From: Paracoccaceae bacterium
GTDB taxonomy: Bacteria; Pseudomonadota; Alphaproteobacteria; Rhodobacterales; Rhodobacteraceae
Assembly: GCA_009773055.1 (NCBI GenBank)
Contig: WOUW01000021.1
Location: forward strand, 1-33,202
Reading direction: 5' to 3'
Length of the DNA stretch: 33,202 nucleotides
Shown here one piece after another: positions 15,574 through 29,924 of this stretch. Made by a program: the position numbers and the translations under genes. Position 1 is the first letter of the stretch; the number at the start of each line of letters is the position of its first letter. Below the pieces are notes generated by a model that made no database searches, had not been told where the DNA came from, and saw only the letters and a program-made list of their open reading frames with translations.

Positions 15574-15647
15574 TGGAGCGGGTGAAGGGAATCGAACCCT
15601 CGTCGTAAGCTTGGGAAGCTTCTGCTCTGCCATTGAGCTACACCCGC
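15574..15647 (-). tRNA. tRNA-Gly (anticodon CCC), CCA encoded
   Basis: The minus strand folds as a 74-base cloverleaf: acceptor GCGGGTG (15647-15641) pairs with CACCCGC (15584-15578), D arm GCTC/GAGC, anticodon loop TTCCCAA with CCC at 15615-15613, T loop TTCGATT, discriminator T and an encoded 3' CCA (15576-15574). The anticodon arm resembles that of E. coli glyU. It reads GGG codons. Confidence 0.95.
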
Positions 15648-17024: not shown

Positions 17025-17855
17025 TCAGACGGGCAACTTCAGCCCCAGCAGCTCGCGCGCTTCTGTCGTGGATGCTACCCTGCGATTGGACGTGTTGCAG
17101 ATTTCCACCACACGACGGACGAGGGCGGCGTTGGAGGGGGCGAGCGCAGTCTTGTCGAGACGCACGTTGTCCTCGAGCCCGGTGCGGGCGTGGCCTCCGG
17201 CGGCGACGGACCATTCGTTCAGGGTAAGCTGGTGCGGACCGATCCCGGCCGCGCACCATTCCGAGCCGGGGAGCAGGCGTTCCACAGTGCGGATGTAGTA
17301 GTCAAAGACGTCGCGGTCGGCGGGCATGGCGTTCTTCACGCCCATCACGAACTGGACATATGCCGGGGCTTTCAGTCTGCCATCGGCCTGCATGGCGGCG
17401 GCCTGATGGATGTGGGAAAGGTCGAAGCACTCGATCTCGGGCTTGATGTCGTGGGCCAGCATCTCGGACGCCAGCCAGTCGACGAGGTCGGGCGGGTTTT
17501 CGTAGACGCGGGTCGGGAAGTTGTTCGAGCCGACCGAAAGGCTTGCCATGTCGGGCTTGAGGGAAAGCATTGCGCCACGCGCCTTGCCCGCGCCGGAGCG
17601 ACCGCCGGTCGAGAACTGGATGATCATGCCGGGGCAATGCTTCTCGACGCCTTCCTTCAGGCGGGCGAATTTCTCGGGGTCGGCGGAGGGGGTCTCGTCA
17701 TCGTTCCTGACATGGGCGTGGACGATGGTGGCCCCGGCCTCGAAAGCTTCGTGCGTCGATTCTACCTGTTCCGAGACGGTGATCGGCACGGCGGGGTTGT
17801 CGGCCTTGCGGGGCAGCGATCCGGTGATGGCGACGCAGATGATGCAGGGTTTCAT
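17025..17855 (-). CDS. Beta-keto acid cleavage enzyme (BKACE, DUF849)
   Basis: The family condenses a beta-keto acid with acetyl-CoA and splits it to acetoacetate and the shortened acyl-CoA. 276 residues. Zinc ligands His46 and His48 (IVHAHVR) and Glu228 (GLEDNVRLDK) match the positions of the characterised lysine-fermentation member Kce, as does Arg224 (HARTGLED). Other family marks are ITGSLPRKADNPAVPIT at 10-26 and the FSTGG loop at 81-85. ATG 17855 overlaps the stop of the dioxygenase gene (ATGA). As the last gene of a maleylacetate-forming operon, the most likely substrate is 3-oxoadipate, giving succinyl-CoA; that is inference, as BKACE specificity cannot be read by eye. A small GC stem (CGCGG/CCGCG, 17005-17018) follows the gene and may mark the operon end. 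Confidence 0.92.
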   Translation of the reverse strand: MKPCIICVAITGSLPRKADNPAVPITVSEQVESTHEAFEAGATIVHAHVRNDDETPSADPEKFARLKEGVEKHCPGMIIQFSTGGRSGAGKARGAMLSLKPDMASLSVGSNNFPTRVYENPPDLVDWLASEMLAHDIKPEIECFDLSHIHQAAAMQADGRLKAPAYVQFVMGVKNAMPADRDVFDYYIRTVERLLPGSEWCAAGIGPHQLTLNEWSVAAGGHARTGLEDNVRLDKTALAPSNAALVRRVVEICNTSNRRVASTTEARELLGLKLPV

Positions 17856-18730
17856 GTCGGGGCCAGGACGAAGTCGTGTTCCACGAAAAAGTAGGGTTTG
17901 TCGAAGCCTGCGTCGGCGATTGCGGCGGGGTCGGTGATCTTCTGGAACGTTGCGAGCAGGCTTTCCTTCACGCCAAAGACAGCGTCGGAGGTGATGTAGG
18001 GATCATCCGGGTCGAAGATATGAGTGACGAGGCGGGCATGGGCCGGGGCCTCGATGATGTAGTGGAGATGCGCAGGGCGGAAGGGGTGGCGACCGAGAGC
18101 TTTCAGCAGTTGGCCGACAGGACCGTCGTCGGGGATCGGGTAGAACTTCGGCTTCACGCCCTTGAACCAGTAGCTGCCGTCCGGCCCGGTGCGGAACACG
18201 CCGCGCAGATTGAAGTCGGGCTGGATGCCCTTCTGCTGGACGTCGTAGAACCCTTCGTCATTTGCCTGCCAGACGTCGATCTTGGCATTCGCCAGGGGCG
18301 TCCCGTCGGTCGAGCGGATCGTGCCCCGCACCAGCATCGGGTCGCCCTTCTGGTCAAGGCAGATGTCGGCGCCCATCGGCAGTTCCGGCGCGTCGGCGAC
18401 GTGGAAGGGGCCGAGGACGGTGCTTTCGCTGGCCCCGGAGGGTTTGCGGTTGTTGATCGCGTCGACCAGCATCGAGACGCCGGTGACATCGGACAAGAGG
18501 ATGAACTCCTGCCGCCAGTCGTTGCACATGTGGCCGGTGGCCGTGAGGAACTTGATCGCCTCGAACCATTCGGCCTCGGTCGGTTCGATTTCCTTCACGG
18601 CGGCGTGGAGGTGGCGGGTGAGAATGGCCATGACTTCGGCCAGGCGCGGGTTTGTCGCGCGGGCGTTGCGAGAGATGACGACATCGGCGGAGGTGGCTTC
18701 AGTGAAGAAGCCCTGTTCGGTGCTGGTCAT
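17852..18730 (-). CDS. Intradiol ring-cleavage dioxygenase, hydroxyquinol 1,2-dioxygenase type (copy 1)
   Basis: Non-heme Fe(III) enzyme that opens hydroxyquinol (1,2,4-trihydroxybenzene) or a catechol between the hydroxyls; the product of hydroxyquinol is maleylacetate. 292 residues, the length of hydroxyquinol dioxygenases. An N-terminal helical dimer domain (about 20-95) precedes the catalytic domain (about 100-290). The Fe ligands are in place: Tyr162 (EGFYDVQ), Tyr197 (KFYPIPDDGPVG), His221 and His223 (RPAHLHYI), nearly the numbering of the Nocardioides simplex enzyme. ATG 18730 is two bases after the hydroxylase stop; the 3' end overlaps BKACE. Catechol 1,2-dioxygenase is the alternative, but the neighbouring maleylacetate reductase favours hydroxyquinol. 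Confidence 0.93.
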   Translation of the reverse strand: MTSTEQGFFTEATSADVVISRNARATNPRLAEVMAILTRHLHAAVKEIEPTEAEWFEAIKFLTATGHMCNDWRQEFILLSDVTGVSMLVDAINNRKPSGASESTVLGPFHVADAPELPMGADICLDQKGDPMLVRGTIRSTDGTPLANAKIDVWQANDEGFYDVQQKGIQPDFNLRGVFRTGPDGSYWFKGVKPKFYPIPDDGPVGQLLKALGRHPFRPAHLHYIIEAPAHARLVTHIFDPDDPYITSDAVFGVKESLLATFQKITDPAAIADAGFDKPYFFVEHDFVLAPT

Positions 18731-18732
18731 GG

Positions 18733-20484
18733 TCAATGTCCAAGGATGCTGCGCAGGACGCGGGTGAGGTCGGCCTCGGCGCTGGTGGAAGCGGTGCTGC
18801 TGCGCCAGGCGACATGCTGGTCGGGGCGGACGAGGAGGCAACCGCCATCCTTGATCTCGCGCACCTTGTGCCAGTCGCCTACGTGGTCTTCGTAGTCGGC
18901 CCGGGGGCCGATGGTGACGGTGCGCACGTCCATGTTCAGGGCCTCTTCTGCGTTTTTGGCGGCCTTGACCCAGGCCGCGCCGCCAATGCCGGTGATCAGG
19001 GTGAACTTGCCCTTGCCGCAGAGGTCCAACGTGGAGTGCTTGCCCCCGGTCCGGTCATAGACCCAGGCGTGGGGCAGGCGCGCGCCGGGGGTTGTGGTGG
19101 GGTGGTAGTAAAGCTCCATGTTGTCGTTCACAGGGGCGGTTGTCCCGTCGCCGACCACGGCCCCGGAGACGTAGCGCTGGTTCATCTCGACCCCGTGGCA
19201 GTCGAATTCGTAGACCTTGAAGTCGATGGCTTTGCGCAGCGCCTCGCGCTGCGCTTCGCCTGCGGGTGTGGCGTCGCAGCGGGCGGCCATCGAGGCCTCG
19301 ATCCGGTCGTGATCGACGCCGCCATCCATGCCGAGGGCCTCGAAGATCGGGCCGAATTCGGCGATGGACTGGTTGGCGCGGGTGACGATCTGCCGGGCGA
19401 TGGGCGCGCGTTCGGTGGAGTAGCTGTCGAGAAGCTTGGGCGTGGCCTGGCCCTTGACCACGGCGGCCAGTTTCCACGCAAGGTTGAAGGCGTCCTGGAT
19501 CGAGGTGTTGGATCCAAGGCCGTTCGAGGGCGGGTGCCGGTGCGCGGCGTCGCCCATGATGAAGACGCGGTCCTTCTGCATGTGCGTCGCAAAGCAATTG
19601 TTGACCGTCCACGTATTGGCCGAGATCAGGTCGATCTCGAGGTCCGGGACGCCGACCAGCTGGCGGGCCACTTGCGTCGCCATCGCTTCGTCGACAACCG
19701 GGGCGGGCTGGTTGATGTCGTAGCCCCAGACAATCAGCCATTCGTTCCAGGGGCGGACCATACGGACAAGGCCCATGCCGATACCGCCGACGTCGGCGCC
19801 AGGCTGCATGACCCAGTAGAGGACGCTCGGCCGATGAGCGACGTAGCGGGAAAGGTCGGCGCGGAAGAGGATATTCATCGACCCGCCAACGCCCATCTTG
19901 CCTTCGAACGGAAGGCCAGCGTGTTCGGCCACCAGCGAGTTCCCGCCGTCGGCGCCGACGAGGTATTTCGAGCGGATCGTCAGGTCGCGACCTGTCAGCC
20001 GGTCGCGGCAGTTGGTTGTCACGCCCTCGGCATCCTGGACGTGAGAGAGGTATTCGGTGCTCATCCGGGGCTGCGCGCCGCGGGAGCAAGCGGTCTTGAA
20101 CAGGATCGGCTCCATGAAGGTCTGCGGCAGGTCGTTCATCTCGCAAGGCGAGGCGCGGAGGTGGCGGGCTTTCGATTCCGGGCTGGTGCCCCAGGATTGC
20201 ATCCTGCCCAGCTCTTCACCGGCCAGCGAAACGCAGAAGACGTTGTTGCCCATCAGGTGCTGGGGTGCGGCATGGAGCATTGCTTCGGCCTCGACCTCCG
20301 ACCCCAAATCACGCAGCACCTCCATCGTGCGCTGGTTGGTGATGTGGGCACGGGGGGTGTTCGCAAGCCAGCGGTAGCGGTTCACGACCAGCACATCGAC
20401 CCCGTATGAGGCGAGGAGTGCTGCGGTGGCCGAGCCTGCGGGGCCGGTGCCGATGATGAGAACGTCGGTAGTGATGTCGGCCAT
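18733..20484 (-). CDS. FAD-dependent phenol hydroxylase, TfdB (2,4-dichlorophenol 6-monooxygenase) type
   Basis: Class A flavoprotein hydroxylase expected to add a hydroxyl group to a phenolic ring with NAD(P)H and O2. 583 residues, close to TfdB. Rossmann GTGPAG at 12-17; the TfdB-like stretch RWLANTPRAHITNQRTM at 38-54; the GADG motif at 177-180; the FAD ribityl motif GDAAHRHPP at 311-319, followed by NGLGSNTSIQDAFNLAWKLA. The C-terminal thioredoxin-like domain is present, including the terminal DQHVAWR. ATG 20484 has GGAG with a six-base spacer and lies one base from livM; the open frame extends upstream inside livM but is not coding. The actual phenol is unknown: hydroquinone, resorcinol or a substituted phenol would all fit the operon. 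Confidence 0.92.
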   Translation of the reverse strand: MADITTDVLIIGTGPAGSATAALLASYGVDVLVVNRYRWLANTPRAHITNQRTMEVLRDLGSEVEAEAMLHAAPQHLMGNNVFCVSLAGEELGRMQSWGTSPESKARHLRASPCEMNDLPQTFMEPILFKTACSRGAQPRMSTEYLSHVQDAEGVTTNCRDRLTGRDLTIRSKYLVGADGGNSLVAEHAGLPFEGKMGVGGSMNILFRADLSRYVAHRPSVLYWVMQPGADVGGIGMGLVRMVRPWNEWLIVWGYDINQPAPVVDEAMATQVARQLVGVPDLEIDLISANTWTVNNCFATHMQKDRVFIMGDAAHRHPPSNGLGSNTSIQDAFNLAWKLAAVVKGQATPKLLDSYSTERAPIARQIVTRANQSIAEFGPIFEALGMDGGVDHDRIEASMAARCDATPAGEAQREALRKAIDFKVYEFDCHGVEMNQRYVSGAVVGDGTTAPVNDNMELYYHPTTTPGARLPHAWVYDRTGGKHSTLDLCGKGKFTLITGIGGAAWVKAAKNAEEALNMDVRTVTIGPRADYEDHVGDWHKVREIKDGGCLLVRPDQHVAWRSSTASTSAEADLTRVLRSILGH

Positions 20485-20485
20485 C

Positions 20486-21526
20486 TTAGGCTCCTTCGAA
20501 GATGAGGCGGCGTTGGACGGGGAAGAGGGCAATGCCCCAGCGGTCGGCGATAAGTCCCCAGAGGCCGCGCGGGGCAAAGAGCATGGTGGCGATGGCGAGG
20601 AGACCGAGGGCGAGGAGATACCAACTGCCATAGTCGGCAAAAGCGGTCTGCAGCCCCCAGAAGACGAGAACGCCGATAATCGGGCCTTCCAGACGCCCGA
20701 TGCCGCCGATGACGGCGATGAAGATGACGTAGGCGGTCCAGTTCGTGACGGAGAAGGCGGCGTCAGGCGAGATGCGCGCCGTCTGGACGTAGATCAGCGC
20801 CCCGACGAGGCCGGTCATGGTGGCGGCGGACAGGAACACCAGCCATTTGACGCGGGCGGCATCGACGCCGACCGACCGCGCGGCGTTGTCGTTGTCGCGG
20901 ACGGCGGCGAGTGCAAGTCCGGTGCGGGAGCGCAGAAGTGCGTAGATCGCGGCCATGGTGCCGACGGCAAGGGCGAGGGCGAGCCAGTAGGCGAGCACGT
21001 CGCGGGCTGCGGCGTCGCGAAGGTCGAAGAGGCTGGCGATGGCCCCGACTCCCATGATGTCGGAGGTGGCTTCCCGCGGAAGCGAGGTGCCGGTGCCGCC
21101 GCCGAGGGTTTTCCACTGGGCGATGAGAAGGCGCGTCACTTCGGCAATGACCCAGGTGCCGATGGCGAAATAGGCCCCGGTCAGGCGAAAGGCGAAAAAG
21201 GCCATGGGGATCGCCAGGAGGAAGGCAGCGAGGCCGCCGAGGAGAATGGCGGGGACGGGGTCCCACCCCATCAGGATGACCCCGGCGAACATCGCGTAGG
21301 CTCCGATCCCGACGAAGGCTTGTTGCCCGACGCTGACCATGCCGCCGAAACCGGCGATCAGGTTCCAAAGTTGGGCGAGGGTGAGCATGGTGAGGATGAA
21401 GAACAGGTCCTGGATCAGGCTGCGCGACGCGAATGCCGGAAGGACTAGGCCAAAGGCGATCAGCGCGAGGGCGATGATCCCGGCGATGCTGCTGGCGCGG
21501 GTGCGGGTGGTGACGGTGTAGGCCAT
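20486..21526 (-). CDS. Branched-chain-type ABC transporter permease LivM
   Basis: One of two membrane subunits of the HAAT-type importer in this operon. 346 residues with about nine to ten hydrophobic segments. The family loop AVRDNDNAARSVGVDAARVKW (about residues 235-255, EAA-like contact with the ATPases) and the C-terminal IGGIGRLEGPIIGVLVFWGLQ are visible. ATG 21526 shares its last base with the livH stop (TGATG). In this operon the transporter probably imports an aromatic acid or phenolic, as related importers do, rather than branched-chain amino acids. That is inference. Confidence 0.93.
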   Translation of the reverse strand: MAYTVTTRTRASSIAGIIALALIAFGLVLPAFASRSLIQDLFFILTMLTLAQLWNLIAGFGGMVSVGQQAFVGIGAYAMFAGVILMGWDPVPAILLGGLAAFLLAIPMAFFAFRLTGAYFAIGTWVIAEVTRLLIAQWKTLGGGTGTSLPREATSDIMGVGAIASLFDLRDAAARDVLAYWLALALAVGTMAAIYALLRSRTGLALAAVRDNDNAARSVGVDAARVKWLVFLSAATMTGLVGALIYVQTARISPDAAFSVTNWTAYVIFIAVIGGIGRLEGPIIGVLVFWGLQTAFADYGSWYLLALGLLAIATMLFAPRGLWGLIADRWGIALFPVQRRLIFEGA

Positions 21527-22389
21527 CAGTCCACCGCCCGGGGGAAAAGACCGCGTGGGCGGATCAGGAGCACAGCGAGGAAAGCCAGGTGTCCGGCGAG
21601 GATCTGCCATTCGGGATTGAGCTGCGCACCGATAGTCTGTGCGACACCGATGATCGCTCCTCCGAGAAGGGTGCCCCACAGGGAACCGAGGCCCCCGATG
21701 ATCACCGCCTCGAACGCGTAGATCAGGCGGGCGGGGCCGATCGAGGGGTCGAAGTTCGACCGCATCCCGAGGTAAAGGGCAGCGATGGTGACGATGACCA
21801 TGGCAAGGCCGGTGGCGATGGCGAAGACTGACTTCGGGTTGATGCCCATCAGGCTGGCGGTCGTGGGGTCATCCGACACGGCGCGGAAAGCGCGGCCGAG
21901 GGCGGTGGTGTAGAAGATCCGGTTAAGGGCGAAGATCACCAAGACAGCGGAGGCGAAGGTGAGAAGCGGCATGGTGCCGACAGTGACCGGGCCAAGGTCG
22001 ATCGAGGCACTTTCCAGCGGGCCTGCGGCAAGGCGCTGGCTGTCGGCGGAGAAGATCTCCAGCATCCCGTTCTGGAGGGCGACCGAGAGCCCGAAGGTGA
22101 TGAGGAGTGGGGGAAGGATGTCTTTCCCCATCACGCGGTTCAGAACGAAGCGTTGCAGCGCCCAGCCAGCCGCGAACATCAGGGGCGCGGCGAGGAGAGC
22201 GGCGAGGAACGGGTGGAGGCCCGTGGACCCGGTGATGAGAAGGATGGCGAAGGCGGCGAAGACGATGAGGTCGCCGTGGGCCAGGTTCACAAGACGCATG
22301 ATGCCGAAGACGAGGGAGAGGCCCGCGGCGAAAAGGGCGTAGAGCCCGCCGAGAAGGATGCCCTGGACGAGGACGTCTATCCAGATCAT
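21526..22389 (-). CDS. Branched-chain-type ABC transporter permease LivH
   Basis: Second membrane subunit. 287 residues, eight or so hydrophobic segments. Family marks: LLGGLYALFAAGLSLVFGIMR near the N-terminus, NLAHGDL just after it, the cytoplasmic loop RAVSDDPTTASLMGIN, and FEAVIIGGLGSLWGTLLGG towards the end. The ATG at 22389 (MIWIDVLVQGILLGGL) is chosen over the upstream in-frame start at 22464, which would add a non-hydrophobic Arg-rich tail. It is separated from livF by a 163-base spacer packed with inverted repeats, unlike every other junction in the operon. Confidence 0.94.
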   Translation of the reverse strand: MIWIDVLVQGILLGGLYALFAAGLSLVFGIMRLVNLAHGDLIVFAAFAILLITGSTGLHPFLAALLAAPLMFAAGWALQRFVLNRVMGKDILPPLLITFGLSVALQNGMLEIFSADSQRLAAGPLESASIDLGPVTVGTMPLLTFASAVLVIFALNRIFYTTALGRAFRAVSDDPTTASLMGINPKSVFAIATGLAMVIVTIAALYLGMRSNFDPSIGPARLIYAFEAVIIGGLGSLWGTLLGGAIIGVAQTIGAQLNPEWQILAGHLAFLAVLLIRPRGLFPRAVD

Positions 22390-22417
22390 TTGGTGCCTCG
22401 AGCTGTAGGGCTGTTTT

Positions 22418-22523
22418 CGAGATGAGCGCTGGCGCGCAAGCCTTTCATCTCGCCTCTGGCGCAAGCGCCAACCGGCTTGGGCGATGGGGGCATCCTGCCC
22501 CCAAACCCCCGGGGAGTGTTTGG
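22418..22523. repeat. Mosaic of inverted repeats between livF and livH
   Basis: Four nested inverted repeats fill the 163-base spacer: CGAGATGA/TCATCTCG (22418-22425 and 22445-22452); TGGCG/CGCCA with loop CAAG (22457-22470); GGGGGCA/TGCCCCC with loop TCC (22486-22502); and CCAAAC/GTTTGG (22501-22506 and 22518-22523) around a CCCCGGGG core. The right part (GGGGGC...GCCCCC, CCCCCGGGG, then TTTGGGAAAAGAG) resembles the dispersed GC-rich intergenic repeat seen in many Rhodobacteraceae genomes. It breaks an otherwise tightly coupled operon. Confidence 0.6.
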
Positions 22524-22552
22524 GAAAAGAGCAATAGGGAGGGGCCAGTGGA

Positions 22553-23257
22553 TCATGCGGTGGCCCCGAAGTAGGCGGCGTGGATCGCTTCGCGGGTAAG
22601 GTCTTTGGCAGGGGCTTGCAGGGTGACGCGGCCCTCCATCAGGCAGTAGACCCGGTCGGCGACGGAAAGCGCGCGGGCGATGTCCTGTTCGACGATCACC
22701 ACGGCGGCGCCGGAGGCGCGGATCGCGGGGAGGGCGGCGTAGATGTCGCGGATCACCACGGGGGCCAGGCCAAGGCTGATCTCGTCGCAGAGGAGAAGTT
22801 CGGGGTTGGACATGAGGGCGCGGCCGATGGCGACCATCTGCTGCTGACCGCCGGAAAGCGCGGTGCCGGGAGAGTGGCGGCGGTCTTTCAGGATGGGGAA
22901 CAGGCTGTAGATTTCGTCCAGCGACCAGCGGCCCGTGCCGCGGCGGACTTGGCCCCCAATGCGGAGGTTTTCCTCGACCGTGAGGGAGGGGAAGAGCTTG
23001 CGGCCTTCGGGCACCATGGCGATGCCGCGTTGCAGGATCAGGTCGGCGGGGAGCGCACCGATGGGGTCTTCGTTGTGCCGGATCATCTCGGGGGCGTTCC
23101 TGAGGACACCTGTGATCGAGCGCATCAGGGTAGTCTTGCCGGCACCGTTTGCGCCGATGATCGCGACGCATTCGCCTGCGGCGACGTGCAGGTCGATGCC
23201 GAAGAGGGCCTTGAACTGGCCATACTGGGCGGTGAGGCCTTGGACAGAAAGGAGCAT
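22553..23257 (-). CDS. Branched-chain-type ABC transporter ATP-binding protein LivF
   Basis: ATPase subunit of the importer. 234 residues. Walker A GANGAGKTT (35-43), Q-loop region, signature LSGGQQQM, Walker B LLLCDEISLGLAP, and the H-loop replaced as usual in LivF by the EQD of VIVEQDIARA. ATG 23257 lies one base after the livG stop, with GAAAGGAG-like sequence upstream. The downstream end is followed by the repeat-rich spacer. Confidence 0.95.
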   Translation of the reverse strand: MLLSVQGLTAQYGQFKALFGIDLHVAAGECVAIIGANGAGKTTLMRSITGVLRNAPEMIRHNEDPIGALPADLILQRGIAMVPEGRKLFPSLTVEENLRIGGQVRRGTGRWSLDEIYSLFPILKDRRHSPGTALSGGQQQMVAIGRALMSNPELLLCDEISLGLAPVVIRDIYAALPAIRASGAAVVIVEQDIARALSVADRVYCLMEGRVTLQAPAKDLTREAIHAAYFGATA

Positions 23258-23258
23258 G

Positions 23259-23981
23259 TCAGACCTCCATCCCGAGGTAGATCTCGCGGACTTCGCGCGA
23301 GGCCATGATCGCCTCAGGCTCGCCGATGCCGATGACGCGGCCGAAGTCGAGCACGAGCAGGCGTTCGACGACCGAATTCAGCGCATGGAGGACATGTTCG
23401 ATCCAGATGATCGTGACCCCCTTGGCGTGCAGTCCCTTGATCGTCGCGACCAACGCCTGACACTCGCCTTCGGTCAGGCCGCCCGCGATTTCGTCGAGGA
23501 GGAGAAGTTCAGGCCCGGTTGCCATGGCGCGGGCGAGTTCCAGGCGCTTGCGGTCAAGAAGGGATAGCGTTCCGGCGAGCTGGTTGGCACGCGCGAGGAG
23601 TTCGGTGTCCTGCAGGATAGCGACGCAGTCATCGGCGACGTCGGCCTCGCGCTTGTTCCGGCCAAAGGCTGCGGCGGTGAGGAGATTTTCGAAGACGGTC
23701 AGGCCCTCGAACGGCTGGGGGATCTGGAAACTGCGACCCACGCCCAAGCGGACGCGGTCCATCGCTGGGGTGCGGGTGACGTCGCGACCCAGCAGGGTGA
23801 TATGACCGGCGTCAGGCAGGATGTTGCCGGTGATCAGGTTGAAGAGCGTGGATTTGCCCGCCCCATTCGGACCGATGATGCCAAGTGCCTGACCCTTGGG
23901 CACAGAAAAGCTGACATCGTCGGTCACCTTGAGAGCGCCGAAGTTTTTCGAGACGGAAGTGAGGGTCAGGACGTCGGTCAT
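23259..23981 (-). CDS. Branched-chain-type ABC transporter ATP-binding protein LivG
   Basis: Second ATPase subunit. 240 residues. Walker A GPNGAGKST near residue 37; TFQIPQPFEGLTVFENL-type segment (here SFQIPQPFEGLTVFENL); the signature motif is degenerate, LSLLDRKRLELARA, as is usual for LivG; Walker B LLLLDEIAGGL; then HVLHALNSVVERLLVLDFG. ATG 23981 gives the normal N-terminus (MTDVLTLTSVSKNFGALK); the frame is open upstream but there overlaps a hairpin and the binding-protein gene. Lies 49 bases after the binding-protein stop. Confidence 0.95.
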   Translation of the reverse strand: MTDVLTLTSVSKNFGALKVTDDVSFSVPKGQALGIIGPNGAGKSTLFNLITGNILPDAGHITLLGRDVTRTPAMDRVRLGVGRSFQIPQPFEGLTVFENLLTAAAFGRNKREADVADDCVAILQDTELLARANQLAGTLSLLDRKRLELARAMATGPELLLLDEIAGGLTEGECQALVATIKGLHAKGVTIIWIEHVLHALNSVVERLLVLDFGRVIGIGEPEAIMASREVREIYLGMEV

Positions 23982-23997
23982 GGGTGTCGGGCCTTGG

Positions 23998-24025
23998 GTG
24001 CGGCCCCCTGAGACGGGGGCCGCAC
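23998..24025 (-). promoter_or_regulatory. Stem-loop between the binding-protein gene and livG
   Basis: A perfect 11-bp GC stem (GTGCGGCCCCC at 23998-24008, GGGGGCCGCAC at 24015-24025) with a six-base loop lies five bases after the binding-protein stop. No T-run follows. Such hairpins commonly protect the upstream mRNA so that the periplasmic protein is made in excess over the membrane subunits. Confidence 0.6.
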
Positions 24026-24030
24026 AGGGA

Positions 24031-25305
24031 TCAGGCCAGTACCTCCATCGTGCCGCCGGTCGGGATGGCGGGGGCGGTCTGGTTGTCGACGATGACGAGG
24101 TCGAAGGCGCCGTCCTCTTTCCGCCGCCACTGGCCACCGACGAGGGGGGTCTTGGTGACGTTGGCAGCAGCAAAGGGTGGCACGCCTTCGCCCTTCCACG
24201 CGACCTTGCCGACCATGGTGTCGAGGTCTGTCGCGGCGATGGCGGCGGCGATGGCATCAGCATCGGTCACGTCCGAGACTCGGCCCATCACGTTCGACGC
24301 CACTTCGAACAGCGAATGGACAAAGCCGATGGGCTGGGTCCAGGGGCGACTGGTCTTGGCAGTGAAGTCGGCAGCAAGGTCCGCCGCGGACTGGCCGGTA
24401 AGCGAGGACTTGAAGGGATGGGTGTTCGACCACCACACCTCGGATGAAAGGTTGTGGCCAGCCTCACCCAGAGCCTCGACCGACTGCGGGAAGAGGATCG
24501 CTTTGGCAACGGTGATGATCTTGGGGTTGAAGCCCTGCTGCAGGGCCTGATTGCGGAAGGTAGTGAAGTCCGGCGGGATCACCACGCCGGTGACGATGTC
24601 GCAGTTTGCGGCCTTGAAGGCGTTGATCTGGGCCGAGAAATCGTCGTTCAGGTTCTGGTAGCGGCCCGGATCGTTAAGCATGTAGCCCTGCGCCGCAAAG
24701 CCGGGTCCGACGCCGACATTTGGATCGCCCCAGGCGTTGCCGTCGCCGTCATTGGGGAAGAGGCCCCCGACCTGCTTGTTGGTCTCGACCTGGTTCCACA
24801 TGTTCAGGAACACAGCGATGACGTCTTCGAGGCCCCAGAAGTAGTGGAAGGCGTAGTTGAAGGGCTTCCAGCTTGCCGGATCACCGGGGTTGCCTTGCTG
24901 GCCGATGAACCAAGGCTGCCAGGGTGCCATGGTCGAAATGACGGGCATCCCTTCCGCCTCGCAGGTGGTGGCGACGGGGTTGGTGGTCTCAGGCGTGGAG
25001 GCGACGACCATCAGGTTGACCTCGTCGTCGACAATCAGCTCCTTGGCGACAGAGGCGGCGCGGTTCGGATCGGACTGGCTGTCCTTGACGATGACCTCGA
25101 AGTTCGCCCCCGCTTCCGAAGCGAGGAACGCCTCGATATTGTAGGCATCGCTTTCGGCAAAGCCCGCGAGCGGGCCAGACTGCGGGCTGACATAGCCGAT
25201 GCGGATCTTGGCACCCTGCGCGATGGCCGGGGCGAAAAGGCCGGGGGTGGTCAGCGCGAGGCCGGTGGCAGCGCCGGATTTCAGAAGCTTGCGTCTGGTG
25301 ATCAT
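24031..25305 (-). CDS. ABC transporter substrate-binding protein, branched-chain/aromatic type, Tat-exported
   Basis: Periplasmic receptor for the importer encoded downstream (LivG, F, H, M). 424 residues. The N-terminus has a twin-arginine motif, TRRKLLKSG, followed by a hydrophobic run and the cleavage site AIAQG near residue 30, so Tat export is likely. The mature part begins KIRIGYVSPQSGPLAGFAESD, the Peripla_BP_6 signature, and continues with DSQSDPNRAASVAKELI. ATG 25305 has AGGGAGG upstream. The ligand cannot be read from sequence; the operon suggests a phenolic or aromatic acid. Confidence 0.93.
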   Translation of the reverse strand: MITRRKLLKSGAATGLALTTPGLFAPAIAQGAKIRIGYVSPQSGPLAGFAESDAYNIEAFLASEAGANFEVIVKDSQSDPNRAASVAKELIVDDEVNLMVVASTPETTNPVATTCEAEGMPVISTMAPWQPWFIGQQGNPGDPASWKPFNYAFHYFWGLEDVIAVFLNMWNQVETNKQVGGLFPNDGDGNAWGDPNVGVGPGFAAQGYMLNDPGRYQNLNDDFSAQINAFKAANCDIVTGVVIPPDFTTFRNQALQQGFNPKIITVAKAILFPQSVEALGEAGHNLSSEVWWSNTHPFKSSLTGQSAADLAADFTAKTSRPWTQPIGFVHSLFEVASNVMGRVSDVTDADAIAAAIAATDLDTMVGKVAWKGEGVPPFAAANVTKTPLVGGQWRRKEDGAFDLVIVDNQTAPAIPTGGTMEVLA

Positions 25306-25345
25306 GGTTGGTCCTCCCTTTGTTGTGGTTCAGGCTTGCCTTGAG

Positions 25346-26407
25346 TCAGGCGGGGCAGCGCCCGTCGAAGGCCTGTTGCAGCAGGTGTCGGATGCCGTCA
25401 CGGGTGACGGGGCGTGGATTGGCGTAAGGGTTCTTGGTGGCTATTTCGGTTGCGCGGTCGAGGTCGGCTTCCTTGAGGCCCAGGTCTGACAGGCGCAACG
25501 GGGCGTTCAGGGACTTGGCAAAGTGCCAGAGGCCCTTGCCTGCAGCGTCGTAGCCGAAGGTATCGGCTATGGGCCTCAGGAGGTCTTCCACGGCGGGTTC
25601 GTTGTAGGCGGTGGTATGGGGCAGAAGGACGGCATGCGTCTCGGCGTGGGGCAGGCCGAAGCTGCCGCCAAGGACATGGGCGAGCTTGTGGTGCAGTGCC
25701 ATGGTGACATGGCCCAGGGTCAGCGAGCAGCCCCAGGCGGCGTAAAGCGCCTTTGCGCGGGCCTTCTTGTCCTGCGGGTCTTTCGCGAGGGCAGGGAGGG
25801 CATCGCGGAAGGCGGGCATCGCGTCGCGGGACAGGGCCTCGGTGACCGGGTGGCGGTCAGGGGCGTAGAAACCCTCCATCGCGTGCGCGATCGCGTTCAG
25901 CGCCGAGGTGACGGTCAGGGCGAGGGGCAGGGTGAGGGTCAGGTCCACATCGTAGACCACGACCTCGGGCCGGATCTCGGGGTCGCGGCGGGTGGTTTTC
26001 TCGCCACCTGCGGTTTCGCCAAGAATGTCGGTCATTTCGGACCCGGCATAGGTGGTAGGGATCACGACCTGATCGGCCCCGGTGCGGACGGCGATGGCCT
26101 TGCCAAGGCCTGTGGTAGAGCCGCCACCGAGGGAGACGACGCAATCGGCGTTTGCGGCGCGGAAAGCGGCAATGGCCTGGTCGGTCACGTCAGTTGGCGT
26201 GTGCATCACGGCCCCGGCGAAGACACCTGCGGCCCTGTCGCCCAGACGGTCGGCCAGAGCCTGTGCCTCGGCCTGTTGGTGCGGGGTCGAAAGGACGAGT
26301 GCGCGGTGGTGGCCAAGGCGGGCGACTTCATCGGGGACTTGCGCGAGGGTGCCGTGGCCGAAGACCACGCGGGTGGTGAGGCCGGGGAAGGTGAAAGGGC
26401 GGGTCAT
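25346..26407 (-). CDS. Maleylacetate reductase
   Basis: Reduces maleylacetate to 3-oxoadipate with NAD(P)H; member of the iron-type alcohol dehydrogenase superfamily. 353 residues, the normal length for maleylacetate reductases. Marks: GGGSTTGLGKA (94-104, coenzyme), PTTYAGSEMT (117-126), NAIAHAMEGFYAP (171-183), HHKLAHVLGGSFGLPHAETHA (239-259); the PTTYAGSEMT and HHKLAH...PHAETHA pair is diagnostic for this subfamily. ATG 26407 overlaps the esterase stop (ATGA). Both dioxygenase types in the operon can yield its substrate, so it is the meeting point of the pathway. Confidence 0.96.
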   Translation of the reverse strand: MTRPFTFPGLTTRVVFGHGTLAQVPDEVARLGHHRALVLSTPHQQAEAQALADRLGDRAAGVFAGAVMHTPTDVTDQAIAAFRAANADCVVSLGGGSTTGLGKAIAVRTGADQVVIPTTYAGSEMTDILGETAGGEKTTRRDPEIRPEVVVYDVDLTLTLPLALTVTSALNAIAHAMEGFYAPDRHPVTEALSRDAMPAFRDALPALAKDPQDKKARAKALYAAWGCSLTLGHVTMALHHKLAHVLGGSFGLPHAETHAVLLPHTTAYNEPAVEDLLRPIADTFGYDAAGKGLWHFAKSLNAPLRLSDLGLKEADLDRATEIATKNPYANPRPVTRDGIRHLLQQAFDGRCPA

Positions 26408-27063
26408 CGGGGGGCCTCCATCCGAGGGGTGCGACCGGCGGCGAGGTCGATGAGGAGGCTGTCGAGAAGCGCGATCTCGGTGGTGGAGACTTCGTGCGGG
26501 CGGGCGGGAAACACGTCGCAGCGCAGGCGGGCTTCGGCCCGGCCAAGCTCAGTTGCGGCCTCAGCGAAGGCCTCGACAGGAATCCACGGATCATCGCTGC
26601 CAGCGGAGAGGTAGACGGGGAGCCCAGGGGTGAGATCTGCCGAGCGCATGTCGGACGCAATGCCGACGCGGCAGCCGGTGAAGGCTGCCACGGCGTCGGG
26701 AGAGGCCTGGCCAGTGAAGGCGTGCTCCAGCGACAGACAGGCGCCCTGACTGAAGCCGGCGAGGACGAGGGGCAGGCCGGGGGCCATTTCGCGCAGGTCG
26801 GTGATGGCTAAGGCGATGCCTTGCAGGGAGGTCGACAACTCGGCCCGCGTGCTGTCGGTCAATGGGTCGATGGCGCGGGCGGTATACCAGCTCTTGCCCT
26901 CGGCCCGGGGCAGGGCGAAGGCGACGTCCGGGGCGGACAGGTGGTGGATGACCGCCGCCGCCATGTCTTCCGGTGACTGGCCTCGACCGTGGACGAAGAT
27001 GCACAGCACCTTCGCCCGGTCGGGCGGCACGCAAAGGAAGGTGATGTCCGCGACCCCCGGCAT
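26404..27063 (-). CDS. Phospholipase/carboxylesterase family alpha/beta hydrolase (MhqD-like)
   Basis: Serine hydrolase, 219 residues. The oxyanion segment is FVHGRGQSPEDM (23-34); the nucleophile Ser105 lies in GFSQGA; Asp157 or Asp158 (AGSDDPWIP) and His190 (ARPHEVS) complete the triad. In Bacillus a hydrolase of this class (MhqD) is co-regulated with a VOC dioxygenase (MhqO) in quinone and hydroquinone response; here the two genes are adjacent and overlap by one base (TGATG at 27063). ATG 27063 gives MPGVADITFLCVPP. A role in hydrolysing an ester or acyl product of ring cleavage is inferred. Confidence 0.88.
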   Translation of the reverse strand: MPGVADITFLCVPPDRAKVLCIFVHGRGQSPEDMAAAVIHHLSAPDVAFALPRAEGKSWYTARAIDPLTDSTRAELSTSLQGIALAITDLREMAPGLPLVLAGFSQGACLSLEHAFTGQASPDAVAAFTGCRVGIASDMRSADLTPGLPVYLSAGSDDPWIPVEAFAEAATELGRAEARLRCDVFPARPHEVSTTEIALLDSLLIDLAAGRTPRMEAPR

Positions 27064-28019
27064 CAGAAGTTGGCCGGTTCCAGGCCCGCTTCCATCTCGG
27101 CCTGCCGGTCGGCGAACCATGGCGGGAAGACGAGGGACCGACCGATGGCGTCGGCGGGTTCGTCCTTGGCCCAGCCTTCGGGGACGGTCCAGGCAAGCTC
27201 GAACATCGCGCCACCGGGCGAGCGCATATACATCGACTTGAAGTACATGCGGTCCTTCTGTTCGCTGACGTCGGTGTAGCCCATGCCTTCGAGCCGGGCT
27301 TTCAGGGCGATCTGGTTGTCCTCGTTCCCGGTGTTGAAGGCGAGGTGGTGGACGGTGCCCCCGGCCAGCGTCCAGGTGCCCTGCGGGCTGTCGCGGTCGG
27401 TGATCAGCTCGATGACAGACCGCAAGCCGTCATTCTGCGGCACGATCCACATGCTGCCGTTCGGGTCGGTCCCTTCCCGCCGGAACTGCATGCCGATGTC
27501 GAGGAATTCCTCCATTGTGCCAGCATCCATCACGGCAACCGCGCCGCCGTAGATGCCCTTGATCGCCACCTGTGCGGTGGTGCCCTGTGCTTCGTTGACG
27601 ATGGGTTTGCGCGGATCGTCGGGGTTTTCCACCAGCTCGTGCGGGATGCCGCAGGGATGGGCGAAGACCACGCGCGTCAGGCCGAAGCGTTCGCCCTTGG
27701 TGGCCGGAATGCCGTGTTTGTTCAGCCGGTCGACCCAGAAGTCGGCGGCCCCGACCGGGATCGCCTGCATGATCGTGCGCGTCTGGTTGGTGCCGCGACG
27801 GCCAAAGATGCCGGGCTTCTTGAACGGGAAGGTGGTGATGATGGTCGAGGCATCGCCGTGCCTTGACCCATAATAGAGGTGATAGACCGGTAGGACGCCG
27901 TCAAAGAGCACGGTACGCTTGACCGAATAGAGGCCTAGGGCCTTGGTGTAGAAGTCGTAGTCCTCCTGCACGCCGTGCGTGCTCATAGTCAGGTGGTGGT
28001 AGCCGGAGACAAGGGCCAT
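27063..28019 (-). CDS. VOC-superfamily ring-cleaving dioxygenase (PcpA/LinE/MhqO type)
   Basis: Fe(II) dioxygenase of the type that cleaves hydroquinones next to a hydroxyl (PcpA, LinE). 318 residues, two repeated VOC units. The metal triad of PcpA (His11, His227, Glu276) has counterparts in His8/His9 (GYHHLT), His224/His225 (GTVHHLAFNT) and Glu274 (GAMFELAWTVPEGWAKDE). Start choice: ATG 28028 would sit directly on the Shine-Dalgarno, whereas ATG 28019 has GAAGG with a nine-base spacer and gives MALVSGYHHL. Five bases separate it from the upstream dioxygenase gene. Hydroquinone, chloro-, methyl- or methoxyhydroquinone are possible substrates; a catechol extradiol role is less likely. Confidence 0.9.
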   Translation of the reverse strand: MALVSGYHHLTMSTHGVQEDYDFYTKALGLYSVKRTVLFDGVLPVYHLYYGSRHGDASTIITTFPFKKPGIFGRRGTNQTRTIMQAIPVGAADFWVDRLNKHGIPATKGERFGLTRVVFAHPCGIPHELVENPDDPRKPIVNEAQGTTAQVAIKGIYGGAVAVMDAGTMEEFLDIGMQFRREGTDPNGSMWIVPQNDGLRSVIELITDRDSPQGTWTLAGGTVHHLAFNTGNEDNQIALKARLEGMGYTDVSEQKDRMYFKSMYMRSPGGAMFELAWTVPEGWAKDEPADAIGRSLVFPPWFADRQAEMEAGLEPANF

Positions 28020-28024
28020 CGGGG

Positions 28025-28882
28025 TCATCCTTCGGTCTTTGAGGGTTGCGGGACGGACTCCCGGTCGAGGACCAGAGAGACGGTGAGGGAGCGGGGGCCG
28101 AAATCGGCAATCAGGGCGGGTTTGACGGCAAAGAGCGCGTCGCGGGCGATGGCGGGATCGGCGCCATCGAAGATGGCTGTCACCAGTCGACGGTGGCCCG
28201 GAGCCGTGACGGCGAAGTGGATATGCGCAGGCCGGTCCAATGAAAGTCCAAGGCGGCGCGCAAGCTGGCCCACTGGCCCATCATCGGGCAGAGCATAGCC
28301 ACCGGGCCGGATCGTGCGGAAGTGGAAGCGGCCGTGGGCGTCAGCGGTGAAGCAGCCACGGAGGTTGTGTTCCGGCTGATTGTCGGGGTCCTGGTTTTCG
28401 TAACGGCCTGCGCCATTCGCGTGCCAGACCTCAACCCGCGCGCCGGCCAGCGGAACCCGGTCGGCATCCATGACCTGGCCGCTTACGGAAATGGACTCAC
28501 CAGTGCCGTCCCGGCAGAGGTCGGCTCCGAGTGGCAAAACCGGCGCGTCGGCGCGGTAGAAGGGGCCCGGCAGGGTGGACGGAGTGATGCCGGAGCTTGC
28601 CGCCCGGTCGCCGGAAAAGACACCGTCAGTCAAACCGAAGACATCGGCCAGGAGAACCCATTCCTGGCGTCGGGCGTCGGTCGCATAGCCGACGTCGGTC
28701 AGGAACTGCACGAAGGCATCCAGTTCCACCGGCGACGGGCGGAGGGTGGCGATGACCTGAAAGGCGTGGTCCATGATCAGCCGGACGGCATCGCCAAGCC
28801 GGTCCGACGGGCTGGCTGCAAGGCGATGACGCAGCTCGGCTGCGACCTCGTGGCCCTCAGAGCTGTTGCCCTGTCCGTCCAT
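28025..28882 (-). CDS. Intradiol ring-cleavage dioxygenase, hydroxyquinol type (copy 2)
   Basis: First gene of the operon. 285 residues. Fe ligands Tyr161 (AGRYENQD), Tyr196 (GGYALPDDGPVG), His220 and His222 (RPAHIHFA) are all present, with the N-terminal dimer helices at about 15-90. It differs widely from copy 1 (for example GSMW-less linker, GRYENQ against EGFYDVQ), so the two are old paralogs or separate acquisitions, not a recent duplication. ATG 28882 has GGGAGG about ten bases upstream; the open frame upstream reaches into the LysR gene on the other strand and is not coding. Could cleave hydroxyquinol, a substituted hydroxyquinol or a catechol. Confidence 0.92.
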   Translation of the reverse strand: MDGQGNSSEGHEVAAELRHRLAASPSDRLGDAVRLIMDHAFQVIATLRPSPVELDAFVQFLTDVGYATDARRQEWVLLADVFGLTDGVFSGDRAASSGITPSTLPGPFYRADAPVLPLGADLCRDGTGESISVSGQVMDADRVPLAGARVEVWHANGAGRYENQDPDNQPEHNLRGCFTADAHGRFHFRTIRPGGYALPDDGPVGQLARRLGLSLDRPAHIHFAVTAPGHRRLVTAIFDGADPAIARDALFAVKPALIADFGPRSLTVSLVLDRESVPQPSKTEG

Positions 28883-28960: not shown

Positions 28961-28975
28961 ATACCATCTGGTTAT
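28961..28975. promoter_or_regulatory. LysR-type recognition box (ATA-N9-TAT) between the regulator and the catabolic operon
   Basis: ATACCATCTGGTTAT (minus strand ATAACCAGATGGTAT) contains the T-N11-A pattern of LysR regulators with flanking ATA/TAT symmetry. It lies 79 bases upstream of the first catabolic gene, the distance expected for activation, and overlaps the start codon of the LysR gene, as expected for autoregulation. Confidence 0.55.
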
Positions 28976-29924
28976 GAAATTGAGCGAAGCCCACCTGATC
29001 CAGCTTTCTGCAGTGGTGGATGCCGGCAGCGTCAGCAAGGGCGCTGCGGCGTTGGGGCTGTCGCAGCCCGCCTTGTCGCGGTCGCTGGCGCAGTTGGAGG
29101 CGCGTGTGGGCAAGCCGCTGTTCATCCGCGACCGGCGGCCCTTGCAAGCCACACCGCTGGGGGTGCAACTGGCCGCACATGGTCGGCGCATGTTGATGGA
29201 AAGCCGCCGCGCAAGCGAGGCGGTGCAAAGCCTGCTACGGGGCACGCGGGGACTGGTGCGGGTGGGCGGCGTGCCCTTCTTCATGGATGCGATGATCAGC
29301 CGGATCATCGCGTCGTTCCAGAACCAGCATCCCGACGTGGATTTTCAGCAAAGCTATGGCAACCTGTCCGAGGTCGGCACTGGCCTGCGCGCCGATCAGC
29401 TTGACCTCGGAATTGTGCCTCTGGGGATATCGGGTGAACCAGACGGGCTGTCCTTCACCGCCATCCTGGCCGCACGCAATGTTGTCTGCTGCCGGGTTGG
29501 TCATCCGCTGCAGCACAGCAAGAGAGTTTCGACCGGCGATCTCGGCCACTATCCTTGGATCGCCCCGCTGCCCGGTTCGCCGCTTCTGGCGGATCTGTTC
29601 GCCATCAGGTCCTCGCTGGGTTCGGTCGAGCTGAATATCCGCTACTCGGGCGGATCGTTGCTGTCGGTGATCAACTATATGGCCGAGACCGATGCTCTTG
29701 CCATCCTGCCGTTTTCCGTCTGGTTTGCCGAGCGCAAGCACAACCGCCTGGCCGTCCTTCCGGTCGACATTCCGCAGCCGCAAAGAAACCTGGGCATCTT
29801 GCGGCTTCCGGGACCTGCCACCAACGCGGCAGCAGCGGCTTTCTCGAACTTTGTGGTCCAGTCATTCGACTCCATGCAGCAACTGATCTTGCGGCACGAA
29901 AACGCGGTCGTCTGGCGGCGCTAG
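28974..29924 (+). CDS. LysR family transcriptional regulator of the catabolic operon
   Basis: 316 residues, the typical length. The winged helix-turn-helix lies at about residues 5-62, with the recognition region GSVSKGAAALGLSQPALSRS (18-37) and LEARVGKPLFIRDRRPLQATPLG after it; the C-terminal effector domain begins near residue 90 (VRVGGVPFFMDAMI). It is transcribed divergently from the 12-gene operon with 91 bases between starts, the standard layout for a LysR activator and its target. The inducer is probably a pathway aromatic or muconate-like intermediate. No Shine-Dalgarno is visible before ATG 28974, and no other Met fits, so leaderless or weak translation is possible. Confidence 0.92.
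   Translation: MKLSEAHLIQLSAVVDAGSVSKGAAALGLSQPALSRSLAQLEARVGKPLFIRDRRPLQATPLGVQLAAHGRRMLMESRRASEAVQSLLRGTRGLVRVGGVPFFMDAMISRIIASFQNQHPDVDFQQSYGNLSEVGTGLRADQLDLGIVPLGISGEPDGLSFTAILAARNVVCCRVGHPLQHSKRVSTGDLGHYPWIAPLPGSPLLADLFAIRSSLGSVELNIRYSGGSLLSVINYMAETDALAILPFSVWFAERKHNRLAVLPVDIPQPQRNLGILRLPGPATNAAAAAFSNFVVQSFDSMQQLILRHENAVVWRR

Follow-up and report, generated by a model that had tools for sequence, protein, structure and literature searches.

The window, a 33,202-nucleotide stretch of DNA from a Paracoccaceae bacterium (contig WOUW01000021.1), carries a twelve-gene operon that probably encodes a hydroxyquinol route ending in a DUF849-family protein, BKACE, with the CoA transferase and thiolase that would complete the route encoded at a distance; each reaction in the organism is predicted from sequence. 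The beta-ketoadipate pathway is the textbook bacterial route for aromatics derived from lignin and from pollutants. Since hydroxyquinol cleavage and BKACE share a conserved operon, the known BKACE shortcut seems to operate in the maleylacetate branch of this pathway as well.

In the proposed route, a flavin-dependent monooxygenase (FMO) would turn a phenol, for instance resorcinol or hydroquinone, into hydroxyquinol, the exact substrate being a prediction. An intradiol dioxygenase (HQD1), perhaps together with a second one (HQD2), would open the ring to give maleylacetate, which maleylacetate reductase (MAR) would reduce to 3-oxoadipate. BKACE would then condense 3-oxoadipate with acetyl-CoA and split the product into succinyl-CoA and acetoacetate, so that neither 3-oxoadipyl-CoA nor a dedicated PcaF would be needed. 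A CoA transferase of the PcaIJ/ScoAB family and an ordinary acetoacetyl-CoA thiolase, both encoded elsewhere, would finish the acetoacetate, and the net stoichiometry would equal that of the classical route.

Organization of the operon

Gene families were assigned from Pfam, NCBIfam and solved PDB structures (Table 1). Twelve intact open reading frames, all on the minus strand, span positions 17025-28882 of the window in the transcription order HQD2, VOC, ABH, MAR, SBP, LivG, LivF, LivH, LivM, FMO, HQD1 and BKACE, as an earlier reading of the letters alone (the sequence-only reading) had proposed in linking ring cleavage, maleylacetate reductase, an importer and BKACE on one strand. That reading described the junctions as mostly overlaps of 1-4 bases. 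We found such overlaps at only five of the 11 junctions (BKACE/HQD1, where the overlap is 4 bases, LivM/LivH, MAR/ABH, ABH/VOC and VOC/HQD2); the genes mostly abut, with gaps of 1-2 bases at three further junctions and of 40, 49 and 163 bases at the other three.

The BKACE protein and its predicted reaction

The BKACE of the window matched the NCBIfam equivalog model NF053568, named 3-oxoadipate:acetyl-CoA acetyltransferase, with 494.4 bits, 144 above the cut-off of 350. Three further NCBIfam models for BKACE proteins, including that of Kce from lysine fermentation, matched it below their own cut-offs. The residues His46, His48, Arg224 and Glu228, which we take to be those of the active site, are present, as the sequence-only reading had it, and were invariant across 100 BKACE sequences, the window's included. 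Compared with the NF053568 family, no difference was found in the protein, and it is the hydroxyquinol operon context that sets it apart. The conversion of 3-oxoadipate and acetyl-CoA to succinyl-CoA and acetoacetate is well supported as the predicted reaction: the NF053568 match and the finding of one kind of BKACE in three branches with 3-oxoadipate as their meeting point both speak for the substrate first proposed from the letters.

Beta-ketoadipate (3-oxoadipate) is listed as a BKACE substrate after Bastard et al. 2014 (PMC4922564); the 3-oxoadipate group is numbered G3 in that paper and G4 in PMC8963497, so the two disagree. A second, distant DUF849 match lies in the window's genome (G000:C46:68290-69118), in two pieces scoring 82 and 49 bits against the 3-oxoadipate model.

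Recurrence of the MAR operon with BKACE

We surveyed 196 genomes of the order, comprising 195 with a completeness of at least 90% and the window's own. At E <= 1e-30, MAR homologues were found at 29 loci in 28 genomes; 28 of these loci were examined as fetched stretches of 14-19 kb, from which the positions of BKACE were read, and the window was used for the remaining one. BKACE lay on the same strand within 10 kb of MAR at 18 of the 29 loci, and the co-occurrence is thus not unique to the window's genome. A rough chance model, which assumes 3 copies of BKACE in a 4-Mb genome and counts 12 kb on each side, gives an expectation of 0.26 same-strand neighbours per 29 MAR loci. The pairing of MAR and BKACE exceeds chance.

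The core MAR-SBP-LivG-LivF-LivH-LivM-FMO-HQD1-BKACE was whole and in order at 15 of the 18 BKACE-bearing loci, with BKACE ending it after HQD1; at the other three, the core was rearranged (G107) or lacked the importer in the stretch seen (G109 and G034). The front module HQD2-VOC-ABH was complete in the window, G155, G175, G018, G047 and G187 and was represented by VOC and ABH only in G068, and in the BKACE-ended operons L123, L124 and L127 none of VOC, ABH and HQD2 was found. This module is an optional front add-on, probably for hydroquinones. In G175, G047, G053 and G068 the core was present without BKACE and was followed by different genes after HQD1. Because relatives carry such BKACE-less and rearranged forms, the operon is modular, with BKACE as an exchangeable end. 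In G053 (L119:13160-16899), the same-strand genes after HQD1 resemble those for an acyl-CoA synthetase and a 2-oxo acid dehydrogenase, as judged from the sequence without a family search.

In a survey of named genomes, among the best 80 of 577 BKACE relatives, MAR was on the same strand as BKACE at seven loci (L016, L021, L027, L048, L055, L056 and L089). Several loci end at contig edges; at two of the same 80 (L010 and L011) HQD1 is present and the stretch ends at such an edge, so that MAR cannot show. Plasmid pP11_c of the cultured strain Phaeobacter gallaeciensis P11 resembles the window in having BKACE as the last of a same-strand series with MAR, importer and intradiol dioxygenase, but differs in that the monooxygenase comes first under another annotation, the regulator is of the TetR type, and no HQD2, VOC or ABH is annotated. 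A plasmid of Agrobacterium tumefaciens (L146) has an annotated dioxygenase-VOC-hydrolase-MAR series similar to the window's trio at 26404-28882 plus MAR, whereas importer, FMO, HQD1 and BKACE are not in the stretch seen.

One kind of BKACE in three ring-cleavage contexts

The protocatechuate, catechol and hydroxyquinol branches meet at 3-oxoadipate. We labelled the context of 99 BKACE matches, found in 98 of 108 loci, from their neighbours by automatic thresholds, which gave 26 hydroxyquinol-type, 28 protocatechuate-type and 15 catechol-type contexts. The hydroxyquinol-type set comprised 22 matches with MAR and HQD1, one also with pca genes, one with MAR and a more weakly matching dioxygenase, and two with HQD1 only. 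Two loci labelled catechol-like are to be read with care, since L012 has importer genes like those of the window and L132 adjoins a hydroxyquinol-type operon on the opposite strand; L055 and L126, whose BKACEs are identical, probably represent a single strain.

BKACEs 71-89% identical to that of the window occur in pca, catechol and hydroxyquinol operons, and one pca operon (L017) reads pobA-pcaD-pcaC-pcaH-pcaG-BKACE-pcaB-like. On a tree of 100 BKACE rows (the 99 matches and the window, 98 of them distinct), whose bootstrap is not fully settled, 12 changes of the hydroxyquinol label are required, no fewer than 5 of them forced by well-supported branches. The label is also clustered, since none of 500 shuffles gave so low a number of changes. 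The idea that hydroxyquinol operons have a BKACE clade of their own was considered and rejected, as sequences from the three contexts are intermingled in the tree. Only position 252 (I/L) separated the three contexts at a majority above 80% in each group; position 14 was L in 27/27 hydroxyquinol-type and 15/15 catechol-type rows and, in the 28 protocatechuate-type rows, L in 16 and V in 12. Given that BKACE moves nearly unchanged among three upstream routes, its substrate is most likely 3-oxoadipate, the metabolite common to all of them. On the megaplasmid of Ruegeria pomeroyi DSS-3 (L148), BKACE stands directly after pcaG in a pca operon and is annotated as a 3-keto-5-aminohexanoate cleavage protein.

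CoA transferase, thiolase and pcaF

Neither PcaIJ nor PcaF genes were found among the 12 operon genes with Pfam and NCBIfam. The window's genome is 59% complete, and the absence of pcaF cannot be shown there: its best pcaF match scored 372 bits against a cut-off of 597, and thiolases are present below the PcaF cut-off. Missing PcaIJ and PcaF in this genome were for that reason rejected as evidence, and the congener G155, which is 99% complete and has the same operon, was used instead. Its best pcaF match reached 529 bits, below the same cut-off, and it has one CoA transferase. A search of the window's genome for pcaIJ and pcaF, which the sequence-only reading had proposed as a check, did give a PcaI/ScoA-family gene on another contig (C87; TIGR02429, 231.7 bits, cut-off 128.5), by a model that does not tell PcaI from ScoA.

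A CoA transferase above the cut-off was present in 8 of the 8 relatives searched. In the window's genome and these eight, the two transferase subunits share 81-91% identity with the pair next to BKACE in Marivita; G018 has a second pair, 42-48% identical. For 10 of the 99 BKACE matches, a PcaIJ/ScoAB-family transferase lay on the same strand within 11 kb. A Phaeobacter inhibens P88 plasmid (L147) has the order pcaC-pcaH-pcaG-BKACE-transferase A-transferase B-pcaD-cycloisomerase and a Sulfitobacter CB2047 plasmid (L149) the order BKACE-transferase A-transferase B-benE, and neither stretch has a thiolase in its annotation, which is incomplete for these plasmids. A transferase right after BKACE is as expected if BKACE makes acetoacetate, and the arrangement suggests that this transferase may activate acetoacetate. 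A transferase following BKACE was seen in catechol and some protocatechuate operons (L049, L084, L147 and L149). A gene family found after some BKACE genes (cluster 76) was taken for a thiolase; this was rejected, as the member checked (L084) is the benzoate transporter BenE.

The sequence-only reading had BKACE act without a CoA transferase and a thiolase. Both are indeed absent from the operon; however, both are still required, because acetoacetate must be activated and thiolysed, and the transferase sits on another contig. The two functions are moved, not removed.

Above the cut-offs, 102 of the 196 genomes had both BKACE and pcaF, 38 BKACE only, 28 pcaF only and 28 neither. The 38 genomes with BKACE only comprise 37 near-complete ones, G155 among them, and the window's incomplete one. 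Among the 28 genomes with MAR, 19 had both, seven BKACE only and two pcaF only; none lacked both, against 28 of the 168 other genomes.

Relation to published pathways

In print, BKACE in place of PcaIJ and PcaF is described for protocatechuate clusters, and the claim of a distinct, new lower half of the pathway is not supported. Methylobacterium pca clusters hold a DUF849 gene and lack pcaI, pcaJ and pcaF, and a new pathway variant was raised for them (PMC8963497); for a pca cluster with kce, the reaction of 3-oxoadipate and acetyl-CoA to succinyl-CoA and acetoacetate is stated (PMC12379598). These clusters resemble the window in being aromatic operons with a BKACE-family gene, without pcaIJ and pcaF and with the same proposed reaction (PMC8963497, PMC12379598), but they belong to the protocatechuate branch, whereas the window holds the hydroxyquinol branch with maleylacetate reductase and an ABC importer. 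In the CatM/BenM regulon of Cupriavidus (R. eutropha) H16, a COG3246 protein was suggested to cleave beta-ketoadipate (PMC6449761). As in the window, a BKACE-family gene there goes with ring-cleavage genes, with which it is co-regulated; unlike the window, the branch is that of catechol (PMC6449761).

The replacement of PcaIJ and PcaF by BKACE is therefore already published in principle for the sister branches. We found no report of a hydroxyquinol/MAR operon with BKACE in the literature searched, which held open-licence papers only and is no proof of absence. What is added here is the recurrent hydroxyquinol/MAR version, evidence that three branches share a single kind of BKACE, and the pairing of this BKACE with a transferase.

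Evidence against a BKACE-ended route and alternative explanations

Several observations weigh against a route that ends in BKACE. Mutual exclusion of BKACE and pcaF was tested and rejected: the association is positive, with pcaF in 102 of the 140 BKACE genomes. Genome by genome, BKACE is often an addition to pcaF and not a substitute, contrary to the sequence-only reading, which placed it instead of PcaIJ/PcaF. At locus G065, BKACE adjoins the MAR operon on the opposite strand; at 10 of the 29 MAR loci it was not found within the 14-19 kb stretches, of which L141 extends less than 5 kb downstream; and at three BKACE-less loci (G077, G131 and G059:C4) pcaF lies directly beside MAR, the G077 gene having been checked as PcaF. 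An operon on Rhizobium indigoferae plasmid pRinCIP108029c (L144) shares with the window a LysR gene, dioxygenase, MAR, SBP, ABC importer, FMO and intradiol dioxygenase in the same annotated order but lacks the terminal BKACE, VOC and ABH; it is the one Rhizobium form viewed, and of 307 plasmid records with HQD1-like matches 140 are from Rhizobium. Contexts not assigned to 3-oxoadipate account for 30 of the 99 BKACE matches, and in some of them BKACE stands beside an acyl-CoA dehydrogenase (cluster 22, 12 loci). As a family, BKACE is promiscuous (PMC4922564). Finally, a CoA transferase that the authors read as PcaIJ was needed for growth of Roseovarius nubinhibens on 4-hydroxybenzoate (PMC12442348).

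The acyl-CoA dehydrogenase gene is directly upstream of BKACE at L014:8138-10816, L023:8278-10816 and L039 and 1-5 kb upstream at L015, L018, L024, L031, L076 and L085. The L014 protein, the only one scanned, has about 170 N-terminal residues beyond the matched family region.

One alternative is a classical lower half: a PcaIJ-type transferase and a thiolase, either PcaF-like or from beta-oxidation, would act from elsewhere in the genome, and BKACE would be auxiliary, recycling 3-oxoadipate that spills over or setting the CoA balance. We regard this alternative as unlikely, if the best of those considered. It accords with the genomes that hold both BKACE and pcaF, with the PcaI/ScoA-family gene in the window's genome and in all relatives searched, and with R. 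nubinhibens, in which a strain mutated in both pcaF and another thiolase gene reached a lower final density on 4-hydroxybenzoate; the authors infer complementing enzymes or routes, with thiolases backing each other up (PMC12442348). The 38 genomes with BKACE and no pcaF above the cut-off speak against it. The transferase mutant does not discriminate, as the BKACE route uses the same transferase for acetoacetate, and the R. nubinhibens results are predicted equally by the BKACE route and by PcaIJ with redundant thiolases. Also against it, M. extorquens grows on protocatechuate when given pcaHGBL and kce in a construct without pcaIJ/F, although in the excerpts consulted host transferases and thiolases are not excluded and no control with kce removed is described (PMC12379598).

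Alternatively, BKACE might act on a substituted 3-oxoadipate, for example a methyl- or chloro-derivative formed by VOC or HQD2 from substituted hydroquinones, on which PcaIJ and PcaF would be poor. The structures nearest to VOC, HQD1 and HQD2 carry names that refer to chlorinated hydroquinone or hydroxyquinol. However, operons in which no VOC, ABH or HQD2 was found end in BKACE too, and only position 252 separates it from the BKACEs of pca operons, whose substrate would be unsubstituted, which makes this explanation improbable. That BKACE is an unrelated gene at the operon end by chance, as its absence after HQD1 in four relatives and in R. indigoferae might suggest, is hardly credible beside its overlap with HQD1 and the excess of MAR-BKACE pairs over the rough chance expectation.

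Implications of the proposed BKACE-ended route

For the order as a whole, it is conceivable, and we propose it only tentatively, that BKACE plus an acetoacetate:succinyl-CoA transferase is the main lower beta-ketoadipate pathway of the Rhodobacterales, an exchangeable terminal module for the three branches. If so, the 'pcaIJ' of marine roseobacters would act mainly on acetoacetate, and, given a BKACE in R. nubinhibens, its growth on 4-hydroxybenzoate after loss of pcaF and the second thiolase (PMC12442348) would be explained. This offers a testable account of the dispensability of PcaF in a marine roseobacter. Annotation by pcaIJ and pcaF alone may call such pathways incomplete. In addition, plasmid BKACE genes are named '3-keto-5-aminohexanoate cleavage' protein or enzyme in nearly all annotated records (40 listed of 85), a name that hides their likely function.

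Features of the window

Table 1. Genes of the operon and its divergent neighbour, in window coordinates; family and structure matches indicate homology
Feature	Assignment	Positions	Strand	Matches
BKACE (DUF849)	last gene; predicted 3-oxoadipate:acetyl-CoA acetyltransferase	17025..17855	-	PF05853 317 bits; NF053568 494.4 bits
HQD1	hydroxyquinol 1,2-dioxygenase-type intradiol dioxygenase	17852..18730	-	PDB 8r2x (6-chlorohydroxyquinol 1,2-dioxygenase) 324 bits, then 3n9t (PnpC) and 1tmx; homology only
FMO	FAD-dependent phenol monooxygenase, HbpA/TfdB kind	18733..20484	-	PDB 4cy6 (2-hydroxybiphenyl 3-monooxygenase, closest) 598 bits, 6u0p (2,4-dichlorophenol 6-monooxygenase) 442 bits; PF01494, PF21274
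LivM	LivM-type ABC permease	20486..21526	-	PF02653
LivH	LivH-type ABC permease	21526..22389	-	PF02653
LivF	LivF-type ABC ATPase	22553..23257	-	PF00005
LivG	LivG-type ABC ATPase	23259..23981	-	PF00005
SBP	periplasmic substrate-binding protein of importer	24031..25305	-	PF13458
MAR	maleylacetate reductase	25346..26407	-	PDB 3w5s 417 bits, 3hl0 408 bits (maleylacetate reductases); homology only
ABH	alpha/beta hydrolase (phospholipase/carboxylesterase family)	26404..27063	-	PF02230
VOC	VOC-fold ring-cleaving dioxygenase, PcpA/MhqO type	27063..28028	-	PDB 4huz (2,6-dichlorohydroquinone 1,2-dioxygenase, closest) 218 bits, 3oaj (Bacillus MhqO) 147 bits; PF00903
HQD2	second intradiol dioxygenase	28025..28882	-	PF00775, PF04444; PDB 8r2x 182 bits
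LysR	LysR-type regulator, divergent to operon	28974..29924	+	PF00126, PF03466

The divergent LysR gene likely controls the operon, and a LysR homologue was present at 22 of the 28 fetched MAR loci. Downstream of BKACE, a scan that is only weakly informative found no terminator. Further downstream, at positions 15574-15647 of the window, is a gene for tRNA-Gly (CCC).

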